Shown: piece by piece, positions 1,606 through 60,765 of the stretch
Numbering within the stretch: the first letter of the stretch is position 1
Layout of the letters: each line of letters begins with the position of its first letter
DNA from: Saururus chinensis
Taxonomy: Eukaryota; Streptophyta; Magnoliopsida; Piperales; Saururaceae
Direction: 5' to 3'
Length of the DNA stretch: 64,000 nt
Assembly: GCA_035235625.1 (NCBI GenBank)
Contig: CP141144.1
Coordinates: 20,829,014 to 20,893,013, forward strand
Translations under genes and position numbers: made by a program
Notes under the pieces: model-generated
Database searches by the model: none
Seen by the model: the letters and a program-made list of their open reading frames with translations, nothing else
Told to the model about the DNA's origin: nothing

Positions 1606-3018
1606 TGTAATATCCCGGATTTTCTGAGGTTTTGAAAATTAAATACATGGAAATTAGGTTATTTGACTCTTTGACATTCTTAGTAGAATAACTTACACAA
1701 CAGATAGAATTAATAGCTGAAACTCTGTGGTTATAAAGCAGACAGAAAGAGCTTCGAAATGCCACTAATAATGAGCGAATCGGAGTCCGAATAAGGAAGA
1801 TACAACTATTTGAAGTTGAATATATTATATAGGACCCTTTTACCCTATTTTAAACATATGCTTGGGTCATTCAAGTCATTTTGCGGGCCCGATTAATTAA
1901 AGTTTTAAAATTTATTTTTAGAGGCCCAATTAGGTTGCCTAAGGGAGGAGGATTGACCAATTTATAGGGGGATTATGAACCCTAATCCCCATGCTTATAG
2001 AAAGGGTTGCTTAGGACACAATTAGGGGGCTCTTAGCTTTTTGGCCTTAAGCTGGCAAGAAGGTGGTAGACGGCGAGGTTCCGGTGGTAGCCGATTGACG
2101 GTAAAGTGGCAATTAAGGTTGGATTTCTATCTTAATCTTCAAGTCGGGATTAGTAGGAGTTTCGTTAAATAAATCTGAATGATCATTACATTACTTAGAA
2201 GTTTCTACAATTTACTGTATATTTTATAATTTATATGAACATCGTTGTCCCCATAATTAGGGGGAAGTGATTTTTGTCGTGAGTAAATCCACTGGCCGGC
2301 AATCGTCCGGCGATCCAATCGTCAGTTGAAACTATAGTAAGGGAGGGTCCACCCTGGTCTTGGCTGCGGCAATCCAGGCAATAGTGGCCATGGCCTCAGT
2401 GGCCGTGGCTATTCGGCCGCTAAGCAGGAAAAAAAAAAGAAAACAAAATTTATTGTGCGTCCTTTATTTAAAAAGCAATTTAAAAATTCGGGTCGTGACA
2501 ATTGGTAGCTGAGTTAAATGCAGGTATGAAGTTATTTGAATATTATAACCTAATTAGGGTTGATGGGATGATGTAGACATTTTGTGTTTGTTAAACCCTA
2601 GGTAAGCTGGTCCAAAGGGTTGGTAGCTGAGTAGACTGCCGGACCGGTGCAGAGCAAAAAAAAAGGAAACATGGGGCATTGTTCCTCAGGTTGTCGACGA
2701 CCTGTGACAGGACCCAGTCTCCCGGAACCACTTTGCGACGGTGGTCCTGTTGAGCCGGTCCCTCACTGGTCCGTGACCGGAGGCCGGTCTCCTCTGTGAT
2801 TAGTTGCAGAAAGTAGAAGAAAAAAGAAAAGAAAGGCCGCCTTTTGGTAGCTGGCCGGCTACGGACGGTGGCAAAACCAACACCGTTGGTTCTGTCATGC
2901 ACTAGCAGCCTGGAAGCCCTTGGGCTGCCCCCCTCCGCCATAGTATGGGAGGTGCTGCCAGTGGCTAGGTGGCCTCTGGCCATTCGAGGGGAAGACTACA
3001 TGTGATGAGGGTCGTCAG
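1606..3018 (+). mobile_element. Gypsy-type LTR, family A, 5' part
   Basis: The LTR begins TGTAATATCCCGG at 1606. It is clearly homologous to sequence at 12028-12690 and 22484-25432, sharing the TTAAATACAT block, the AGAAAGAGCTT block and a GGGCCCGATTAATTAA-like block. A degenerate TATA element (GCTTATAGAAAGGG) lies near 1992. At 2491-2500 it contains GGTCGTGACA followed by TTGGTAGCTGAG, which looks like an LTR end and primer site. GC-rich sequence resembling the middle of the 22.5-25.4 kb copy continues to about 3018, where a different LTR interrupts it. The piece 6366-8182 plus 10753-11222 is probably the continuation of this or a sister LTR. Open frames here, such as 2591-2983 minus, have no recognisable protein and are not annotated. 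Confidence 0.7.
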
Positions 3019-6000
3019 TGTCATGCCCCGGCACCACCGGACCCAAGCCGAACCCAGTCCAAGAGCCAGTTAAGCATGCGGGGGCAATGAAAAATTGAAC
3101 GATTAATAGATAGCGAAAGACTTAGCCCCACATATGGGTAATTTAACTAGCAGAGTTATGCACCTCACGTCCTTTGAGCAAGAGTATAAGTAGAACAAAA
3201 GAGGACTTTAACTCAAAACTAGTCCACAAGTCTTATACCCACATAATTAGAATCCTGAGCCAACACTCATGGCTCAAATCAAGGTCTAAAACAGATCTAA
3301 AAACATAAGATATACATGAGTTTGTAACAAGAACTACCATACATGAAGTTCTATTATCAAAACAGAGTAAATCAGAAAAAATATAACAAAGTCTAAAGGC
3401 ATCCATGCCTACTCTCATGTTCTCCCCAATTGTTCCTCATATAGAGGGTCCTGCCTGACTGCATGTCGCAATATGCAATCCCAAAACAGAAATACAGAAA
3501 GTGGGGTGAGTAAAACTAGTAAGGTTTGAATACGACAACAATAATAAAAAAACCATCACAACATGGTAATATAACAATTCAGATTCATAATTGACATGGT
3601 AAACTATTTTATGATCATTCCCTTGCTAAACCCCTATTTATCCATAAACATAAAGGTTAGCATGCATATGACACACCTATCAAAGTTAGGAAATAAATAA
3701 TCATATCATAACTTAGCATCCATCCTGCATATATAATGATCCTCATCCATTCAAAATAAAGCATAATAGCATGCATAATCCGCATGAGAAGTGTCTCTCG
3801 ATCATGTGGCCATATCACATAAACCTCCATAATAGTGTCTCAATCACACTATTTAGATCATGCATTCATATCACATAAACTTGCATAATAGTTTCAATCA
3901 CACGATTCAGATCGTGTATTCATATCACATCAACCTGCATGAGGACTGTATCTAACACATAATTTAGATCATGCATTCATATAAATCTCATACATTCCAT
4001 AGCTCATTCACATGTACGACAAGTTTCTAAACCACACTACATCAAGATCATGCATAATAAATCGCATCCACATATGTCACATAATCTCAAATATCCCTAC
4101 ACAACCTTTGTAATCTGGGCATAATATTATATCATACACATACATTATCATCAAATGGTGAATGTCTCCATGATGGAGAGGAATATAATCATATCAGGAA
4201 TACAATCATATCACCCACTCTGAACGTAGTCCAATTTTCTATACAGAAACTTAGGGCATTGCCCGCTCTGCGGTGGAAGAGTTTGAATTAACTAGAACAC
4301 GTGGTAGTCGGTGCACAGAGGCATACCACTCTCGATTCTTAGGGTCCAGGTTTGACTGTCTCAATAAATAAATCTCAACTACATTAATAATTCAGATCAA
4401 CTCAACTTAGGGAGTATACATGTTCCACATAAGAATTCAAATCGAAATCATGTCTTTTCCGACCAACCAAGTTCCGATTAAGCCAACAATCGATTAATTT
4501 GACACACAATCTAACATCATTGCATACAATCGATCAACCATGGCTAATCATCGATAAATACTCATTTGTGAAGTCCGTTTCATGATGCATGAATTCATGA
4601 TACATATGTGAGCAAGTTCTAAGTGAATTCCCAAACATGGAACGTACTCTCATCAGTCCCCACATGCATCATATTCCAATCATAAACAACCATGATTTCA
4701 TAGCAAATACCCCACATGTGTGTGTTCATACATTTCTAAGCACATGGTCATGCTTTGCCAATAACTCATAAGGCAATCTATACATGCTTCAATAAAAATC
4801 TAATAATAATTACCAACTAAAATCATGGGTAAAATCTAACGTAAACCATCATTCTATTCATATGAAACCAAATGCTCAACTCTTACAAGCATGATATCAC
4901 CATTCACCCACAATTCATTCATATTATAAGATAACATATCATCTCATTGTCATACAATAACCTTGCTGGAAACATACTTAGAACATAAGAATTCCATGAC
5001 CCATAAGTTCAAGATAATCAATGTTAACATGTCTAACCATCCACATGTAATTCCACAAGATACTTAAGCATGTTTTATAAATGCCAACATAAGTAGCATA
5101 CCCTTCCAATAGCTTACACTAGCTCAAAACACTCCACATAAACATTAAAAACATCACTTGGGAGCAAAAACACCAAAATGAGCATAACAAACAAAAGGGC
5201 TAAATCTGTTGTGTAGCCGATCAATCGACCTAGAAGACCATTCGATCGGTTGGCCTTAAAATCGGCCAAATTTGTTGTGTGGCCAATCGATCAGCTTGGC
5301 AAGCCGTTCAATCGGCCCAATCGATCACCAACAAGGCAGATCGAGGTCTTCTTCTTCCTTTCGAAATTCAAAAAAGGAACACCATTAATGGAGCTTAAAA
5401 TCTTCATTCCAAGCCTCATACACCATCAAAATTAAATTAACATTCCATAACATTAAATAAACTCATTTCAAATCAAAACCCTAAATAATCAAGTCAAAAG
5501 ATTAACTTTTTGCAAATCCACCATGAAAGCCCTAAATATGTAACTCATTCAATCAAAATACATAAAAAGCGAGATTTGCATTCATATTATGGCTGAGATG
5601 AAAACCCATTACTTCTCCATTTGATTTGAGTCGGATCTACGTGTTAATCACCTCTGAAACCTTCGAAAAGTAAGATTTTTATGTTAAAACACACCTAAAC
5701 TTGATTCAGACTTGAAAATCATAAAACAAATCTTAGATCTAGAGCTTAGGAGGCATAAAATAGATTTTGTGAAGGTTAGGGTTTGAAGTAGAGGAGTAGA
5801 ATAGTGATTTAATGCTTTAAAAACGGATTGAATCAATGGAGGAAGACAAAATTAAGAGAAGTTTAAGAAAACCCTAAAGATTAAGAAAGCATTAAGGAAA
5901 TCTTACCTCTAATCACTTCCTTTTTGGGCAAAATTGGGGATTAAGCTCTAGATCTCCTAGCTCAGCCTTTTCTCAAATAGGAAAGGGTTAGCCTCTTTCG

Positions 6001-8841: not shown

Positions 8842-9380
8842 ACTAAATCAAGTATGCTCTACGCAATGGAGCTGTCCGTTCTTCGAGTTGGAGACCGTAT
8901 GATGAGGAAACGTCCTAAGACAAGAGGAGGTCCTGCCCGTTATCTTCATGCACCAACGAACTTTGTTTTCTCTGTTTCTGGCCATCCCAACTCCGATTTA
9001 GTCAGTCCAAGAGGCGTTCTTGACTAAATCAAGTATGTTCTACGTGGTGGAGGGTTCTGTTTTCTAAGTTGGCAATCGTATGAAGAGGAAACGCCCCAAG
9101 ACAAAGAAAGGTTCTACCCGTACCGACAAACTTTGTTTTCTCTGTTTCTGGCCATCCCAACTCCGATTTAGTCAGTCCAAGAGGCGTTCTTGACTAAATC
9201 AAGTATGTTCTACGCGATGGAGAGGTTCGTTCTTTGATTCAGCAACTGTATAAGGAGGAAATGCCCCGAGACAAGGAGAGGCTCCACCCGTCATCCTCGA
9301 GCAACGAACAAGAAATATGGGCCCGGAGCAAGACAGGATTTTGTCCGAAGTTGCCAAGCTACATCAAGAGAAGTAATCCA
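8842..9380 (+). repeat. 170-180-bp tandem segments in the family-B LTR
   Basis: Three segments start with ACTAAATCAAGTATG at 8842, 9022 and 9192. Each continues with a TCTACG..ATGGAG block and an ACGCCCCRAGACAAG-like block. The first two share a nearly identical tail containing CTCTGTTTCTGGCCATCCC. The equivalent motif recurs near 14064 and 14240 in the sister LTR, so the duplication predates this copy. Confidence 0.8.
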
Positions 9381-9609
9381 GACTAGGGGAGGTTCTGTCC
9401 GCCACTCACGGGCACAGGAAACGAGAAGAGTCTCCAGCAAGGAGAACATTTATACGTAGTCTTTCGGTACAAGACGAGGAACGTATGGAGGCTAGAGGAA
9501 GCTCTGTCTAATATCTTCGGATCTGAAGGGGAGGATGCTCGTGTGAGCAACTCCGTATACCGCTACTATACGAGACATAAGGGCAGTAAGCAACTCTGTA
9601 TTCCGCTAC

Positions 9610-10180
9610 TATACCTATATGCTATGTATCTATATGCCATGCTAGGTGCCTATATGCCATGCTATGTGCCTATATACTATGCTATGTGCCTATATACTAT
9701 GCTATGTGCCTATATACTATGCTATGTACCTATATGCCATGCTATGTGCCTATATACTATGCTAGGTGCCTATATGCCATGCTATGTGCCTATATACCAT
9801 GCTATGTGCCTATATACTATGCTATGTGCCTATATACTATGCTATGTGCCTATATACTATGCTATGTACCTATATACTATGCTATGTACCTATATGCCAT
9901 GCTATGTGCCTATATACTATGCTAGGTGCCTATATGCCATGCTATGTGCCTATATACCATGCTATGTGCCTATATGCCATGCTATGTGCCTATATACTAT
10001 GCTATGTACCTATATGCCATGTTAGGTGCCTATATGCCATGCTATGTGCCTTTATACTATGCTATGTGCCTATATGTCATGCTATGTGCCTATATACTAT
10101 GCTATGTGCCTATATGTCATGCTATGTGCCTATGTACTATGCTACGTGCCTAGATGCCATGATGTATACTTACATGACGT
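9610..10180 (+). repeat. 20-bp minisatellite, about 28 units, with a 160-bp higher-order repeat
   Basis: The unit is GCTATGTGCCTATATACTAT, with a common variant ending GCCAT and others with GTACC or GGTGCC. The period is exactly 20 bp from 9621 to 10160. The four-unit block 9721-9800 recurs base for base at 9881-9960, 160 bp away, which shows amplification in eight-unit steps. Because 20 is not a multiple of 3, every plus frame repeats the same 20-residue peptide and stays open; there is no evidence for translation. The related LTRs at 13.4 and 52.9 kb lack the array. Confidence 0.95.
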
Positions 10181-42947: not shown

Positions 42948-44099
42948 AGGGAATTTATTTAAATAAGATTAAAAAAATATTTACCAAAATATTACACTGG
43001 AAAATATTTCTTAAAGTGGTGTTATTTTTGTCTACGTAGGCGCTAGCAAAGCGTTGGCGCCTGCATGATTTTTTTTTAATTTTTTCTTGATTTTGTCCTT
43101 CCAAATGACAAAATCAACTTAAGTCCTTTGTAAATCTCAAGCCCATGCCCATGCTTTAAGTCAATTTTGTCCTTTAGTGAGCTGATTTCGTCCTTCCAAG
43201 GGACGAAATCCCAGTGTGATGATTTGCTCCTTTGTAAGGATGATATCCTAGAACCAAGGACCAAGGCACACACGGCTTTAAGAATGGAAGTTGAGATTTC
43301 ATCCTTTCATCTAATGAATTTTTTTTTAGAAACCTGAAAATTAAAAACAACACTTGTCCCTATATAACATCAAATAACACCCACATAAAACATACAAATT
43401 TATCCCTACATAAGCATCAAATATAAATGTTCATAAAACATATAAATCGATCTTTATATAACATATGCATGTTCATAAAATGTTTTAGTTTGCAAAACAA
43501 ACATATCATAATTCTAAGTCACTCAATCTCTTCTACCCCTACATCCTCGACCATGACCCCAACCCCGACGGTGTTGTACTGGACTTCCTGCTTCTCATGG
43601 TCTGCCTGCTCCTCCTGTTCATGGTCCACTTGCTCCTCCTGCTCCTTATGGTCCACCTACTCCTTCTCATGCTCTTGCTCCTAATAGATGGCTCAACACG
43701 AGCTGCCCATTGTCGTCTATAATATACTATCAGATCTAGCAGGGGGTAAGCTACATGTGGAGCAACTAAAAATGATGAACGTAGAGGAGAGCCAGGTGCT
43801 GCAGATGAAGATGGAATATCAAGGAATCAATCATGCCTTGGCTGTGTCTGAGCTACCTCATCGGTATGATAATGTCCATGAACGTCTTTAATCACTAACT
43901 GAAGGAGGGGCGACATCTTGATGTTGCTTGATCATCAACTGACATCTAATAAGATCTAACCCAAAGTATAAGTGTTAACAGCGTCAGTCAAATTGGCAAG
44001 TGTCTGTCGTGCTAATCCAAGCTATATAAAAATTAAAATAAAAGTTAGATAAATAATAAATGTGAAATAAAAAAATGTTATTAGAAAATTAATTACGAT

Positions 44100-45900
44100 A
44101 TACTTACAAAGCTGCATGAGACGCATCCCTAGGCTGATATGTCATCTCCTCTACATCATCGCACAATAAAATATATCACCATGTAATGGGTAAATACCAC
44201 TGCATATACGGGCTACAAACATCTCACGATGTTGTAGCCATCTCCCCTTGAATTATAGTAGCTCTCCTATCATCCTATCGAGCGATATATGTTGAATGAT
44301 GTAGAGTCCAGCTGGTAATATGGTGGCCTTCTCGAGTGATGTGATGGACAAACTCTAAGGTATGAGGAGGGACCTCTTGCTCCCAGTTAAACTAGAGCAT
44401 CACACCATCCGGCATGTACATCTTGACAATCTCAAAACAGATGAGTGGCATTCGCGAGAGCCACACATCTTGAACCTCGGTATAGAGAGGAGGTGACTCA
44501 GCCAAAACCTCCAGCTACTATGGTTGCTAAATAACCTACACATTTTATAAATATAATTATGTTTTAATGACCTTACATATCTTATAATCATTGTATAAAA
44601 TTTGATAATGAAATGAAATTGCCTGATAAGGCTACTGGTGGTCTAACTCTCCCTTGTACAAACAGAGGACTCCTTGTGGATTTTCAGTCTTTCTCTTCTG
44701 AACATTCCACCTTAAGGAGTCAAATTCAAAACATAAGTTCAGCATATCCAAATAAACCATGCTAAAAAAAATTAAGTGTTAAAAATAAAAATACCCTACC
44801 TCGCTCCTAATGGAGCACCCTCAACTACATGACCCATCTCAATACTTGGTTGGCTGACGTGTAAATGCTCCCACGACCATAGTTGTCACGAAATATGATA
44901 AAAATTATTAAAAAAGATGAAGTAATTATGCGTGTAAAAAATATTAACTTCAATGAATTCATTTACATAAAGGGTCTGGTCATGGCCTAACATGTTTTTC
45001 TTAACTCTCAGTATAAAAATGCAAGAGTAGCACTGCCTCATGTATAAGTGCCTGCCATATCGAAGTCCGTAAGGAGGGACAAATACGCAACTTCAATGAA
45101 TTTATTTACCTAAAGAAGTGTCTAGTCATGGCCTAACATGTTTTTCCTAACTCTCGGTATAAAAATGCAAGAGTAGCACTGCCTCATGCATAAGTGCCTG
45201 CCATGTCCAAGCCCATAAGGAGGGAGAGATACGCAACATGTACATGGCTACTCTTGTTATCTGCAAATATTGTAGCCCCAAGTAAATGTAATAAATATGC
45301 ACGTGCATACTGCTCGATTACTATCTCTATGGCATCTGCTGGGAGCTCATGAAACTCACCTAAGAACTATCTAAAGCTCACTCGGCTACCACACATCACT
45401 GTAGTAGGTGGAGCTCTGCCAAGGAGTCTGAATAATAAAACCAAATGACCTCCTCCTATCATGCTTGTCATGACATCTTCATCGATACGAAGTCCTAAAA
45501 GAACTACCACATCCATGAGAGTGATGGACATCTCCGCATAAAGTAGTTGAAACGTTTGTGTCTTCCTCCTCTATCTCTCGACAAGATCTATCAAGACAAA
45601 TGTACTGTATATGAATGAAGTCCAAATCTTGCTCACAAGATATATGGTAGAATACACTCATCTACGGGCCACCGTCGAAGATATAAAAAATGTTCGGTGC
45701 ACTCAAGGTACCCGAGGTCCTATAATAAATTTAAATATTATAACCTAGCATAATATATAGTCTAAAAAATTAAATAAATTTCATAAACAATTAGAATACT
45801 TCTCTTCGCCAAATAGAAGTTGACCTATGCAACTCCTACTGGGCAAGTACTGTCTCATCAATAGGGCCTGTCCATAAAAAGACTCCATATGTTCCATATG
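44100..45900 (-). pseudogene. Plant mobile domain (PMD, MAIN/MAIL1-like) part of the MULE gene, broken
   Basis: PMD is the aminotransferase-like domain of the Arabidopsis MAIN and MAIL1 proteins and also occurs in transposable elements. In order on the minus strand: GPIDETVLAQ, a stop, then ELHRSTSIWRRE (about 45870-45800); EMSITLMDVVVLLGLRIDED (about 45530-45475); GRAPPTTVMCGSRVSF and FLGEFHELPADAIEIVIEQY; LLGATIFADNKSSHVHVAYL with ATLAFLYRELG (45340-45130); RWNVQKRKTENPQGVLCLYKGELDHQ split by frame near 44720-44640; and MYMPDGVMLQF with HHITREGHHITSWTLHHSTYIAR near 44410-44290. Stops and a 143-bp internal duplication disable it. It follows the transposase in the same orientation after an apparent intron (45905-45983). 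Confidence 0.8.
44946..45234 (-). repeat. Tandem duplication of about 145 bp inside the PMD
   Basis: 44946-45088 and 45089-45234 both begin AACTTCAATGAATT and share the GTCATGGCCTAACATGTTTTTC, GCAAGAGTAGCACTGCCTCATG and AAGTGCCTGCCAT blocks, with scattered differences. The duplication covers the ATLAFLYREL segment and breaks the reading frame. Confidence 0.92.
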
Positions 45901-45982
45901 ATCTGCGGAGAATTAAGATCGTTAGAAACATATAGTCATATATAAAATAGAGAATAAATAAAAAGACTAATTATATGTTTAC

Positions 45983-46659
45983 CAATCAATAGGAAGGTTT
46001 CTACAGGATTTACTATTATGCCCAGTTTGTTTGCACCTCCCACATTTGTACCCTACTCTACCATTTCTCTCTATGGTCACACGGTCCATTGTATTCCTAA
46101 TGTGAACAGATCGTGGGTGATCAAGTTATCTTGTTGCTCTTGGAGGGAATAACACATAAGGTATATCTCTCTCCCAAAACTCTTGACTACGAAGAGAATA
46201 GAATTGTGCGGAGTACACATTTCTATAAGCAGTCGAAGTGTAATAAAGTCCTGCCTGTATAGGCTCCCGCCGTTTTCCCCACACGGCAATAAGGTGTGAG
46301 CAAGGATACAAGTAGACTTGAGGGAGATTGCATGTACAAATATGAAGAACCGCATTCACCACAACCTTCCGGCCACGCATTGACATCACTTCATACTCGT
46401 TGCAATTGATCCTGTTAATTATGTACTCCCCAATTCTTCTTGTTTATTCTCTAATTAACCCTTCAATCCTGGGAGTATACGGGGTGGCCATGGCATCCGA
46501 AGCAGAAGATCGTTTCACAAAGAATTTTACTACACAATAAAAAGTAGTTGACACTAAAGCTTGCATGGGTAATCCTCGTGCCCCCTTCAAGAGGTTATTT
46601 AAACTTTCAGCCATATTTGTAGTCGCCATGCATAGAGACCGATTGATTACAAGAGACAC
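45983..46659 (-). pseudogene. MULE transposase C-terminal region (SWIM finger and zinc knuckle)
   Basis: The minus strand from 46659 reads NRSLCMATTNMAESLNNLLKGAR (the TTNMAESLN..LKG.R signature following the MULE catalytic domain) and LPMQALVSTTFYCVVKFF. After a stop and frame change comes a SWIM-type finger, CTCNLPQVYLYPCSHLIAV, then YYTSTAYRNVYSAQF. Last is a CCHC zinc knuckle, YKCGRCKQTGHNSKSC. A GT donor follows (GATTG|GTAAAC) and leads to the PMD exon. The DDE catalytic part is absent. Confidence 0.85.
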
Positions 46660-47543
46660 TGTGCGGCCAAGTTAAGTTCGCTTGGCTGCCAACTTCAAAT
46701 TACCTATAGGGCCTCTTAGGGGCCACAAACATGATTGGAAATGGAAATGGAAATGGAAATGAGCTCATTTGTTTTAGAAATGAGTAGATCCATCTAGATG
46801 GAACTGAATGAATAGGGTTAACTTTGATAACTTGTTAATGTCATCCACTTCTAGGGCAATTCATCAAACATCATATAAACATTAACTCATTTGTGACTCT
46901 AGCATTAATAAAAAAACAACCAAAACTTTTCATTAAGAAAGAGATAAATGAATACTTATTCTTTAACTTTAACATCTGAATCATTAGAAAAACAGTCGTT
47001 TTGTGTTCTATGTCTAAATTCTACTCACATAAAAAATCACATCAAGGGAAAACAAACCTATGTCTGTGGTCAGACGGTGTAGGAATGGTGCATGCGGAGC
47101 GGATCTGGGTGGACGGTGGAGGAATCGTGTGTGAGGATGGTCGGATGGTGGTTTCCCTTGGTGATTTGGGCGGAGCACTGTGCGGGCTGAGAAAGTTTGA
47201 AACGGAGTAGATGAACGGAAAGAGGAACGTCAGGGTAAATAGAGAGTGGATTTCGTTGTTTAGAAGGACAAATATAGCTTAAGTTGATTTCGTTCTTCAA
47301 AATGATGAAATCCACTTAAAGCACCCGGGCGTGAGTGAGTTTGACAAAAGGCGAAGTGGTGAGATTTCATACTTTGGAATGACAAAATTTGTTTAAGTTG
47401 ATTTCATCTTTTTTAAAAAAATGCCTTGGAGGCGTCAGTGCTTAACGAATGCCTATGTGATTAAAAAGAATACTTTAAAAAATATTTCCCAAAGTACATT
47501 ATTTTAGTAAATATTTTTTTAATATTATTTAAATAATTTTCCT

Positions 47544-57434: not shown

Positions 57435-58200
57435 GATCCAACTTGAAGGTTGGCCTCTCACCATATATTTATAACTTGAATTTTCATGTAAAACAGTTGT
57501 AGTCAAAGCTTTTCAGACGCCATGGTACGTAGTCTTGAAAACGAAAAGGAGTTACTTGAATAAAGTACGTAATTATTTTTAAAAATTGAAGGATTAAATA
57601 TATCAAGAAAAGATCCAACTTGGAGGTTGAACTCTGATCAAATCTATTTATAACTTGGATTTGCTGTAAAACAATCGATGTAGTCAAAACCTTTCAGATG
57701 TAATCACGAATAATTGAATTTATGCTGATCATGAAAAGGAGTAGTAGACTAAGTTGTTAAATAATGGAATTCTAAAAAAGGATAGATATGTTAAGAAAAT
57801 ATACAACTTGGACTTTTTTTTAAAGATCAGTACAACTTGGACTTTTTTTTTAAAGATCAGTACAACTCTGATCAAATCTATTTATAACTTGGATTTGATG
57901 TAAAACAATCGATGTAGTCAAAACCTTTCAGATGTCATCACGAATAATTGAATTTATGCTGATCATGAAAAGGAGTAGTAGACTAAGTTGTTAAATAATG
58001 GAATTCTAAAAAAAGATAGATATGTCAAGAAAATATACAACTTGGACTTTTTTTTTAAGATCAGTACAACTTGGACTTTTTTTAAACTATGATGATAATG
58101 AAAAGAAAAGTAGCTGCATAATTAAATAATGTAATTTTAGAAAGAAAAAAAAGGCATATAGAAAGAAAAGATCCAACTTGGAGGTTGAATTAAGAGGGAG
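57435..58200. repeat. Tandem repeat array of about 110-243-bp units upstream of the P450
   Basis: Units begin near 57435, 57612, 57855 and 58059. The second and third share long near-identical stretches (CTCTGATCAAATCTATTTATAA to GAATTCTAAAAAARGATAGATATGT). GATCNA..ACAACTTGGA words mark the unit borders. First and last units are diverged or partial. No coding sequence is present. Confidence 0.88.
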
Positions 58201-59280
58201 AGACATTATTTTTTATACGTTGGATGTTAATGGAGTGCATTACTTACACATTATCTGAGACATACATAGATTTTAAATTTAGAATGCTTCCATTTACACC
58301 CTGTTAATCTTTTCAATACCCTGATTTAAAAAAAAAATTCAGTCGTTTCTTTTTACGTACTCTATAAAACCTCAAACAGCCCAGTATTTTTCTCCTTACT
58401 TAATTACCCTACCTCAACAAAACCTCACACCTCCCACTCTAACTCTGGTGGCAGCGATAACTCCAGTGGCAGCAACTTAAGTCACCTTTCTCTGCCTTCT
58501 TCTAGTGCTTCTAACCGCAGCCAACAACTAGTTTTGAGCCTCGCGGCCAAATCTTCTGGTCGCGAGCTTTTGGCCTCAACCAGATCTTCTAACCACTAGC
58601 TTTCGGTCACGGCCAGGGTTCTCTACTATGGCCACCGTCAGAGAGAAGGAAGAGGTTGTCGGTGCTGAAGATGAAGAGAGAGAAAAGGGTAAGGTCCACG
58701 TAATATATCTATCTATATATATATAATGTGGGGTATATATATAAAATATTTATAAATTAGAAAGAGTAAATGAGAAACAAAGGAATTAATGGGGAACAGA
58801 TAGACACATTCTTAAACTTTAACAGCAGGAGGAATAGCCCAATCTGGCAAGAACATGGCTAGCTTGACCAAGCTCCAAATTTAATCGAGCGCCATAACCA
58901 GCACCTGCGACCATACTACATATAAGGCTCCAAAACCGACCGATCACCATATCCAGCACATGTGACCATACTATATAAGGCTCTTAACATAGTATATAAA
59001 GGATACCACAGCTATGTCCGATGGTAGATACGTCACCTCCCAAAGTGATTCATTTCTTGCTCCATGGCGTGCATCTTGCCTTACGAAGATCTCTCATTTA
59101 TTATTTTCATATAACAAATTAGTCAATCTTCAGCCTCAACTATGAGTATACAAAATGCAAGTGCCACTATAAACTAGCTAGTTTGTTGTCGTTTAAACAA
59201 CACTAGCTCACCCTACATAAAGGAAATCAGCGGAAGGTTCAGCACTAAAACGTTCCCACCCCTGGAGTTAAGACGAAGAA
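58201..59280 (+). promoter_or_regulatory. Upstream region of the P450 gene
   Basis: 58890-58933 and 58945-58988 are near-direct repeats (CCATANCCAGCAC, GACCATACTA, TATAAGGCTC). TATATAAA occurs at 58993-59000 and CTACATAAAG at 59212-59221. The latter, 60 bases before the ATG, is the better core promoter if the leader is short; the former would give a leader of about 250 nt. 58400-58700 is a mildly GC-rich stretch with no recognised product. Confidence 0.5.
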
Positions 59281-60765
59281 ATGGAGCAGAGTCTATGGCC
59301 GGCAGCTCTCGTGACGGTCCTTGCGCTCCTCTTTGTCCTAAGGAAGTTCTCAACGAGAGCAACAGATGATAAGCCAATAGAATGGCCAGCTGGTCCGCGC
59401 AAGCTCCCCATTATAGGAAACTTGCACCAACTAGCGAAAGGGAGCGACCTGGTCCACCAGAGCCTCGCCAAGCTTGCTGAGGGCTACGGCCGGGTCATGA
59501 CCATCTGGGTTGGCAGCTGGCGGCCCATGATCGTTGTCAGCGACGCAGAGCTTGCATGGGAGGTACTTGTGAGCAAGTCACCAGACTATGCCGACCGCGC
59601 CCTCCCTTCTGTCACAAGGCACCTCACTGCCAACGGCAGCACTGTAGCCACCTCCGATGCCGGGACCCACTGGCACACCCTCCGCCGGGGGCTGCAGTTT
59701 GGGCCCTTAGGACCCAGCAACATCTCAGCACAGGCACACTTCCAGGAGCAAGACATCGAACTCCTCATCGATGGTATGAAAGCAGCAGCTGATCGTCATG
59801 GTGGGGTGATCAAACCTTTCGGTTATATCCGACAAGCCACCATCCGTCTTCTTTGCCGGCTCTGCTTCGGAGCCCAATTTGCGGATGAATCGTTTGTGGA
59901 CAACATGGATAGGGTCGTCGAAGAGAACATCAGCATCACAGGCCACGGCCGCCTCGTGGACGCGTTCGCATTTGCCCGCTTCATCCCATCGGTTCGCCGC
60001 AACGTGGCTCAGACCCTCGCGCTCAGGCAAAAGATCGAACAACTGATCCGGCCCCTTCTCTCGCAAACCCCTCCACCCAATTCTTACTTGCACTTCCTTC
60101 TCTCACAACGCATGCCCGAACCAGTCACCATCTTCAGCATCTTCGAAGTGTTCCTGCTGGGAGTGGATAGCACAGCCTCCACCGCGACCTGGGCTCTCGC
60201 CTTCTTAATCCGCCACCCAGATGTGCAAGAGAAGCTCCACAAAGAGATCACAGAATACTTGGTCGAAAAGCAGGCAACCGTGAAGGTGGAAGATGTGGGC
60301 AAGTTGCAATACCTCCAGGCGGTGGCCAAGGAGACGATGAGAATGAAGCCCATCGCGCCGCTGGCGGTGCCTCACAAGACTGCCAAGGAGACGAGGCTGG
60401 GAGGGAGGAGGGTGGCCAAGGGGACGCAGGTGGTAGTGAATATCTACGCGGTGCACTACGATCCGAGGGTGTGGGCCGAGCAGCATGAGTTCCAGCCAAA
60501 TCGATTCCTAGCTGGTGGAAAGGTCGGTAGTGGTGCAGGAGAAGTGCATCTGCAGTTGTTCATGCCATTTGGAGGTGGGATGAGGGCGTGCGCGGGGATG
60601 GAGCTAGGGAAGCTGCAGGTGGCTCTGCTCCTGGCCAATCTGGTCAGGGCATTCAAGTGGCTGCCGGGAGCCAAGGGCGAGTTGCCTGACCTGAGCGAGG
60701 AGATGACTTTCGTGCTGATGATGAAGAACCCACTAGTAGCCAAGATTGTTCCACATGTTGTCTAA
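59281..60765 (+). CDS. Cytochrome P450, CYP719 family-like (494 aa, intronless)
   Basis: P450 monooxygenase of the CYP719 type, an ER-anchored family that in other plants forms methylenedioxy bridges in isoquinoline alkaloids, lignans or piperic acid, or couples phenols (CYP719B1). Features: N-terminal membrane anchor (residues 2-22), hinge WPAGPRKLPIIGNLHQL, then MTIWVGSWRPMIVVSD. The I-helix is GVDSTAST at 294-301 with Ser instead of the usual Thr, as in CYP719 proteins. ETMR is at 351-354, followed by MKPIAPLAVPHKT, a family signature. The PERF-type motif is QPNRF. The haem loop is FGGGMRACAG (430-439) with Cys437. It is full length, has no stops, and is very GC-rich at third positions. 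The substrate cannot be told from sequence. No other pathway gene lies nearby. Confidence 0.93.
   Translation: MEQSLWPAALVTVLALLFVLRKFSTRATDDKPIEWPAGPRKLPIIGNLHQLAKGSDLVHQSLAKLAEGYGRVMTIWVGSWRPMIVVSDAELAWEVLVSKSPDYADRALPSVTRHLTANGSTVATSDAGTHWHTLRRGLQFGPLGPSNISAQAHFQEQDIELLIDGMKAAADRHGGVIKPFGYIRQATIRLLCRLCFGAQFADESFVDNMDRVVEENISITGHGRLVDAFAFARFIPSVRRNVAQTLALRQKIEQLIRPLLSQTPPPNSYLHFLLSQRMPEPVTIFSIFEVFLLGVDSTASTATWALAFLIRHPDVQEKLHKEITEYLVEKQATVKVEDVGKLQYLQAVAKETMRMKPIAPLAVPHKTAKETRLGGRRVAKGTQVVVNIYAVHYDPRVWAEQHEFQPNRFLAGGKVGSGAGEVHLQLFMPFGGGMRACAGMELGKLQVALLLANLVRAFKWLPGAKGELPDLSEEMTFVLMMKNPLVAKIVPHVV

Follow-up and report, generated by a model that had tools for sequence, protein, structure and literature searches.

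The window analyzed here, a 64,000-nucleotide stretch of the Saururus chinensis genome, carries at positions 42948–47543 a Mutator-like element (MULE) in which the remnant of a transposase gene is followed, on the same strand, by a plant mobile domain (PMD). The outermost 51 nt of the element are inverted repeats at 86% identity (42948–42998 and 47493–47543), and a gapped alignment extends the similarity to ~300 bp with a score of 183, against a maximum of 67 in 500 Markov shuffles. The left terminal inverted repeat spans 42948–43211, its outer 72 columns being 86% alike to the other end and the remainder weaker inward; the right one, at the end nearer the transposase, spans 47248–47543. Between them, read along the minus strand, come a remnant of transposase exon 2 (45983–46631) that holds the MULE tail, a SWIM finger, and a CCHC knuckle and lacks the catalytic MULE domain; an intron-like stretch of 80 bp (GTAAAC...GCAG, 45903–45982), whose GT donor has its first base at 45982; PMD exon 3 (45800–45902), with an ATG five bases in and a frame shift here relative to other copies; and the remaining PMD exons (43682–45719), decayed by stops and frameshifts. 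The transposase tail TTNMAESLNNLLKG lies in an ORF at 46444–46671 on the minus strand. The PMD (PF10536), found in 43400–45900 (minus), scores 131.6 bits (E=5e-38), well past the Pfam curated cut-off of 34.9. The original prediction had placed a transposase tail, a GT donor, and a PMD on one strand within inverted termini, and all of these were found, with ends that far exceed the shuffles. It had also named both fingers; each is located after the MULE tail in 45901–46677 (minus), yet both fall below the Pfam cut-offs (SWIM, 15.1 bits against 19.6; CCHC, 16.8 bits against 27). Two features that it did not mention are a 146-bp tandem duplication within the PMD part (44946–45237, ~90% alike) and ~146 bp adjoining the internal deletion (about 46632–46776), for which no match was found among the 28 relatives searched. 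Elsewhere in the window lie a minisatellite (9619–10161) in which a 20-bp unit is repeated 27 times, a 234-bp unit present about twice in tandem with 97% matches (57630–58083), and a P450 reading frame that stays open for 497 residues between stops (59272–60762).

Relatives were sought in the whole genome (516,460,831 bases in 11 contigs, the window lying on contig C5). A Pfam PMD search gave at least 186 matches from the best 117 of 2,740 candidates scored, and 20 loci of 10 kb were taken from this match list. In PMD exon 4 all 20 retain at least 212 of the 215 codons, and 16 of them retain at least 678 of the 683 codons of transposase exon 2, including the catalytic part; since the loci were picked by their PMD match, the latter count says nothing of transposase copies that may lack a PMD. 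The full-length relatives measure ~7 kb (about 6.7–7.4 kb). An inverted pair of 255–392 bp is present in 14 of the 20 loci and one of 63–228 bp in the remainder, except for L011, where no inverted pair was found at the threshold used for these loci. One fuller copy, L012, matches DBD_Tnp_Mut (1.6e-10), MULE (PF10551; 2.5e-19), SWIM (4e-5), and PMD (1.1e-50), with SWIM above its Pfam cut-off and CCHC below; both of its transposase exons are open, and its PMD is interrupted by a frameshift (exon 3) and a stop (exon 6). Fuller relatives with a catalytic domain, expected by the original prediction, do therefore exist elsewhere in the genome. With the window element itself as query, the best 40 of 3,781 candidates scored include long matches at 74%–86% identity as well as matches to both ends. 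Eight further loci were fetched from these matches (L029–L036); L029–L031 keep 500–679 transposase exon codons and L032 keeps 153, and L033–L036 are shorter derivatives retaining both ends.

Exact 9-bp target duplications lie flush with the ends in eight of the 25 copies tested (L010, L012, L013, L019, L020, L023, L029, and L035), and eight of the nine bases match in L016 and L033; L011, L026, and L032 were left out of these tests. Of 500 pairs of places drawn at random from the window, 3 gave a perfect 9-mer, in a control whose range was that of the L029/L035 test, the test of L010–L023 having searched a somewhat wider one. The placing of transposase and PMD in a single transposon holds: both lie within one set of inverted ends common to the relatives, and these ends, together with the target duplications, mark the two as parts of one element. 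In L019 both flanks of the locus (3–180 and 9233–9395) match the window element, so that a young full-length copy seemingly sits inside an old copy of the window type.

The window element is an old, dead, internally deleted, non-autonomous MULE copy that has decayed in a near-neutral manner. What remains of its exon 2, 224 aligned codons, corresponds to roughly codons 455–683 of the 683 in L012, as the original prediction of a lost catalytic part would have it, and both the transposase and the PMD genes contain stops or frameshifts. No 9-bp target duplication was found for this copy: the best placement among all tried has 3 mismatches, and of 500 random pairs of places 238 also gave 3 and 218 gave fewer. 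In a tree of 32 copies, the window copy falls in an old clade (support 1.00) with terminal branches of 0.07–0.11. By distance L029 comes closest to it (0.128), although the pairing of the two has a support of only 0.46. Clade A, by comparison, is young (terminal branches of about 0.006–0.024) and separate from the clade of the window copy. Measured against copies of its own clade, the PMD of the window copy has an omega of 0.61, which is close to the values in the wrong frames (0.63 and 0.66) and fits a copy that decayed freely.

Where transposase and PMD meet, the question is whether there is one gene or two. The transposase of L012 comprises a first exon ending in GPTW, a short second exon recognized by eye, and then an exon of 684 residues, closing with NPPVDW and a TAA; the same TGGTAA contains the GT donor. 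The gap between transposase and PMD could be aligned in 26 of the 32 loci (L011, L016, L017, L033, L034, and L035 were set aside, two anchors being missing or at an unexpected distance). The intron-like stretch measures 76–96 bp and lies on the same strand as both genes. Its GT, noted in the original prediction for the window copy, is kept in all 26 copies; its AG is kept in 20 and lost in six. This conservation of the GT persists in spite of divergence of the stretch by 27% (A–C), 38% (A–B), and 13% (A–D), as measured on 21 of the 26 aligned copies. Joining at the conserved donor leads to an immediate stop in 24 of the 26 copies, the two exceptions being L030, which has later stops, and L036, in which exon 3 is truncated. 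In 25 of the 26 copies the next exon has its first ATG five bases in; this ATG opens the PMD frame, which from there is open into the following exon in 15 of 26. Splicing would place the PMD ATG 4 bases from the transposase stop. The single fused gene of the original prediction is not supported by this comparison. In L015 and the window copy the joined frame, past the stop, does run on in the PMD frame; this is due to a frameshift in those two copies and is what the original prediction had read. Because of the stop at the conserved join and the PMD's own ATG, the arrangement is most likely one element with two reading frames. Other donors were tried in 17 chosen copies, 16 of them usable (L030 was skipped). 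Donors at −139, −79, −52, −43, −31, and −22 in exon 2 would give an in-frame join in 12–14 of the 16, each deleting at least the last knuckle cysteine (partly judged by eye). A fusion product without a complete knuckle, made from these weaker upstream donors, is possible on paper.

Selection was assessed with Nei–Gojobori ratios and a bootstrap over codons, in groups that exclude L016, L034, and L035, with L004 and L021 falling in a group that was not evaluated. The intervals given here are too narrow, as pairs of copies are not independent and the bootstrap covers codons only. Between clades A and C, omega is 0.28 [0.21–0.34] for transposase exon 2 and 0.22 [0.17–0.27] for the PMD; between A and D it is 0.22 [0.16–0.31] for both; between A and B it is 0.33 and 0.27 [0.22–0.35], respectively; and between C and D it is 0.30 and 0.21. 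Read in the wrong frames, the PMD gives 0.91–1.88 (A–C, A–D, and A–B). Transposase exon 1 is weakly constrained (0.54–0.83). Within clade A and within clade B, omega is 0.49–0.74, with the PMD at 0.54 (A) and 0.49 (B), somewhat under the wrong-frame values of 0.62–0.74. The ratios indicate that between clades the PMD is under frame-specific purifying selection about as strong as that on the transposase, which implies that selection preserved it during the active period of the lineages. The PMD thus looks like a maintained second gene rather than a passenger.

Other PMD sequences in the genome bear on where this one came from. By eye, the MULE PMD has two introns in common, in both position and phase, with another PMD repeat family that is about 42% identical to it and is represented by L003 (C1:36965775–36970031) and L037 (C5:4431200–4440199). 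The common intron position and phase fit descent from an intron-bearing gene; as the second family is also repetitive, this does not by itself point to a host source. The L003-type PMD was entertained as a host gene and dropped on the ground that it belongs to a repeat family itself. The larger part of the 150 matches listed are more than 45% identical to this family (by eye, some being pieces of one locus). It has 138-bp tandem repeats downstream; no MULE frame was seen in it, and no inverted ends were found in the 9 kb of L037. Upstream in L037 there is a Cys-rich ORF (2981–3841) that appears DC1-like by eye. L038 and L039, which agree at 87% over 2.3 kb, form a third PMD group. The predicted structure of PMD exon 4 was of too low quality to be used (mean pLDDT 53), and a phmmer comparison of the PMD with solved structures gave eight matches, the best of which, to a tumor necrosis factor ligand chain (E 0.0019), was taken as chance.

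Taken together, it is quite probable that the window holds an old, deleted copy of a two-gene MULE, a transposase gene followed by a downstream PMD frame with its own ATG. The full relatives of ~7 kb carry a transposase gene with a DNA-binding domain, a catalytic domain, a SWIM finger, and a zinc knuckle; a PMD frame with a conserved ATG of its own follows immediately downstream in the same orientation. The element would have moved by cut and paste through the relatives' transposase. The PMD ATG may be used either on a spliced two-cistron message or on a separate PMD transcript, and the PMD may help the element to withstand silencing by the host, a role on which Ikeda et al. have speculated. 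A stricter version, in which the PMD is an obligate second gene translated by re-initiation 4 bases past the transposase stop and counters silencing by mimicry of MAIN/MAIL1, strikes us as doubtful. That transposase and PMD are nonetheless one fused gene joined by splicing we regard as somewhat less probable again. The short same-strand gap with its conserved GT and mostly conserved AG would suit such a gene, the upstream donors would allow in-frame joins in most copies, and fusions have been reported elsewhere, in grasses and Amborella (PMC5418596); against this stand the stop that follows the conserved donor in nearly every copy and the loss of knuckle sequence that every upstream donor would entail.

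The two-gene reading also has to be set against accounts in which the PMD has no part in the element's life. It might be a functionless passenger, a fragment of a host gene caught by a MULE: such captures are known (PMC5418596), the two introns common with the second PMD family are what capture at the DNA level would leave, and within clades the omega of the PMD is as high as 0.49–0.61. The between-clade ratio of 0.22, similar to the transposase's and seen in the PMD's own frame only, largely contradicts this, and we consider it very improbable. Simple juxtaposition of a decayed MULE and a PMD repeat, with coincidental inverted ends, could appeal to the window copy alone, which has no target duplication. 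It is refuted by ends far above the shuffles and by the recurrence of the same ends and the same order of parts in relatives with 9-bp duplications.

The role of the MULE PMD is treated as speculative in the account drawn on here (PMC5418596); frame-specific purifying selection about as strong as that on the transposase indicates that it functioned as part of the element. In view of the frame break, predicted 'transposase-PMD fusion proteins' deserve a second look for a stop and a start codon lying between the two genes. Should the PMD counter silencing by MAIN/MAIL1, this genome would lend itself to a test, with more than 100 PMD matches, many of which lie within elements of this type.

PMD-bearing MULEs are already in print (PMC5418596, PMC6446971). 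PMDs have been described as confined to angiosperms (PMC8616336). Ikeda et al. (2017) described PMD-C-bearing MULEs of grasses and Amborella as fusion proteins, proposed that MULEs captured host PMD genes, stated that MULEs can capture gene fragments, and speculated that the MULE PMD aids the element against host silencing; in the published tree, MULE PMDs are nested within the host PMD-C clade (PMC5418596). A survey of MULEs placed PMDs in groups 42 and 45–50, antisense in several (PMC6446971, section 6, Table 1), where groups 45 to 50 are VANDAL, MuDR-9_OS, MULE-Monocots, MDR, MUDRAVI2, and MUDR (Table 1) and half of the VANDAL members have a PMD and/or a DUF (PMC6446971). A literature search of partial coverage, over titles and the openings of abstracts, returned no account of a frame break between MULE transposase and PMD or of selection on MULE PMDs; what is new here relative to the print sources so covered is the correction to two frames and the evidence of selection.

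The Saururus elements share the plant mobile domain with MAIN, MAIL1, MAIL2, and MAIL3, which are presented in the accounts drawn on here (PMC5418596, PMC7156037) as host genes, with no enclosing transposon ends. With groups 45–50 (PMC6446971) they share a SWIM and/or CCHC finger, long inverted ends, 9-bp duplications, and a PMD in many members; an antisense PMD occurs sometimes or often in several of those groups, whereas here it is sense and downstream of the transposase. With the PMD-C MULEs (PMC5418596) they have in common that a single transposon combines a MULE transposase with a PMD; those are called fusions, whereas here the frames break at the conserved donor.
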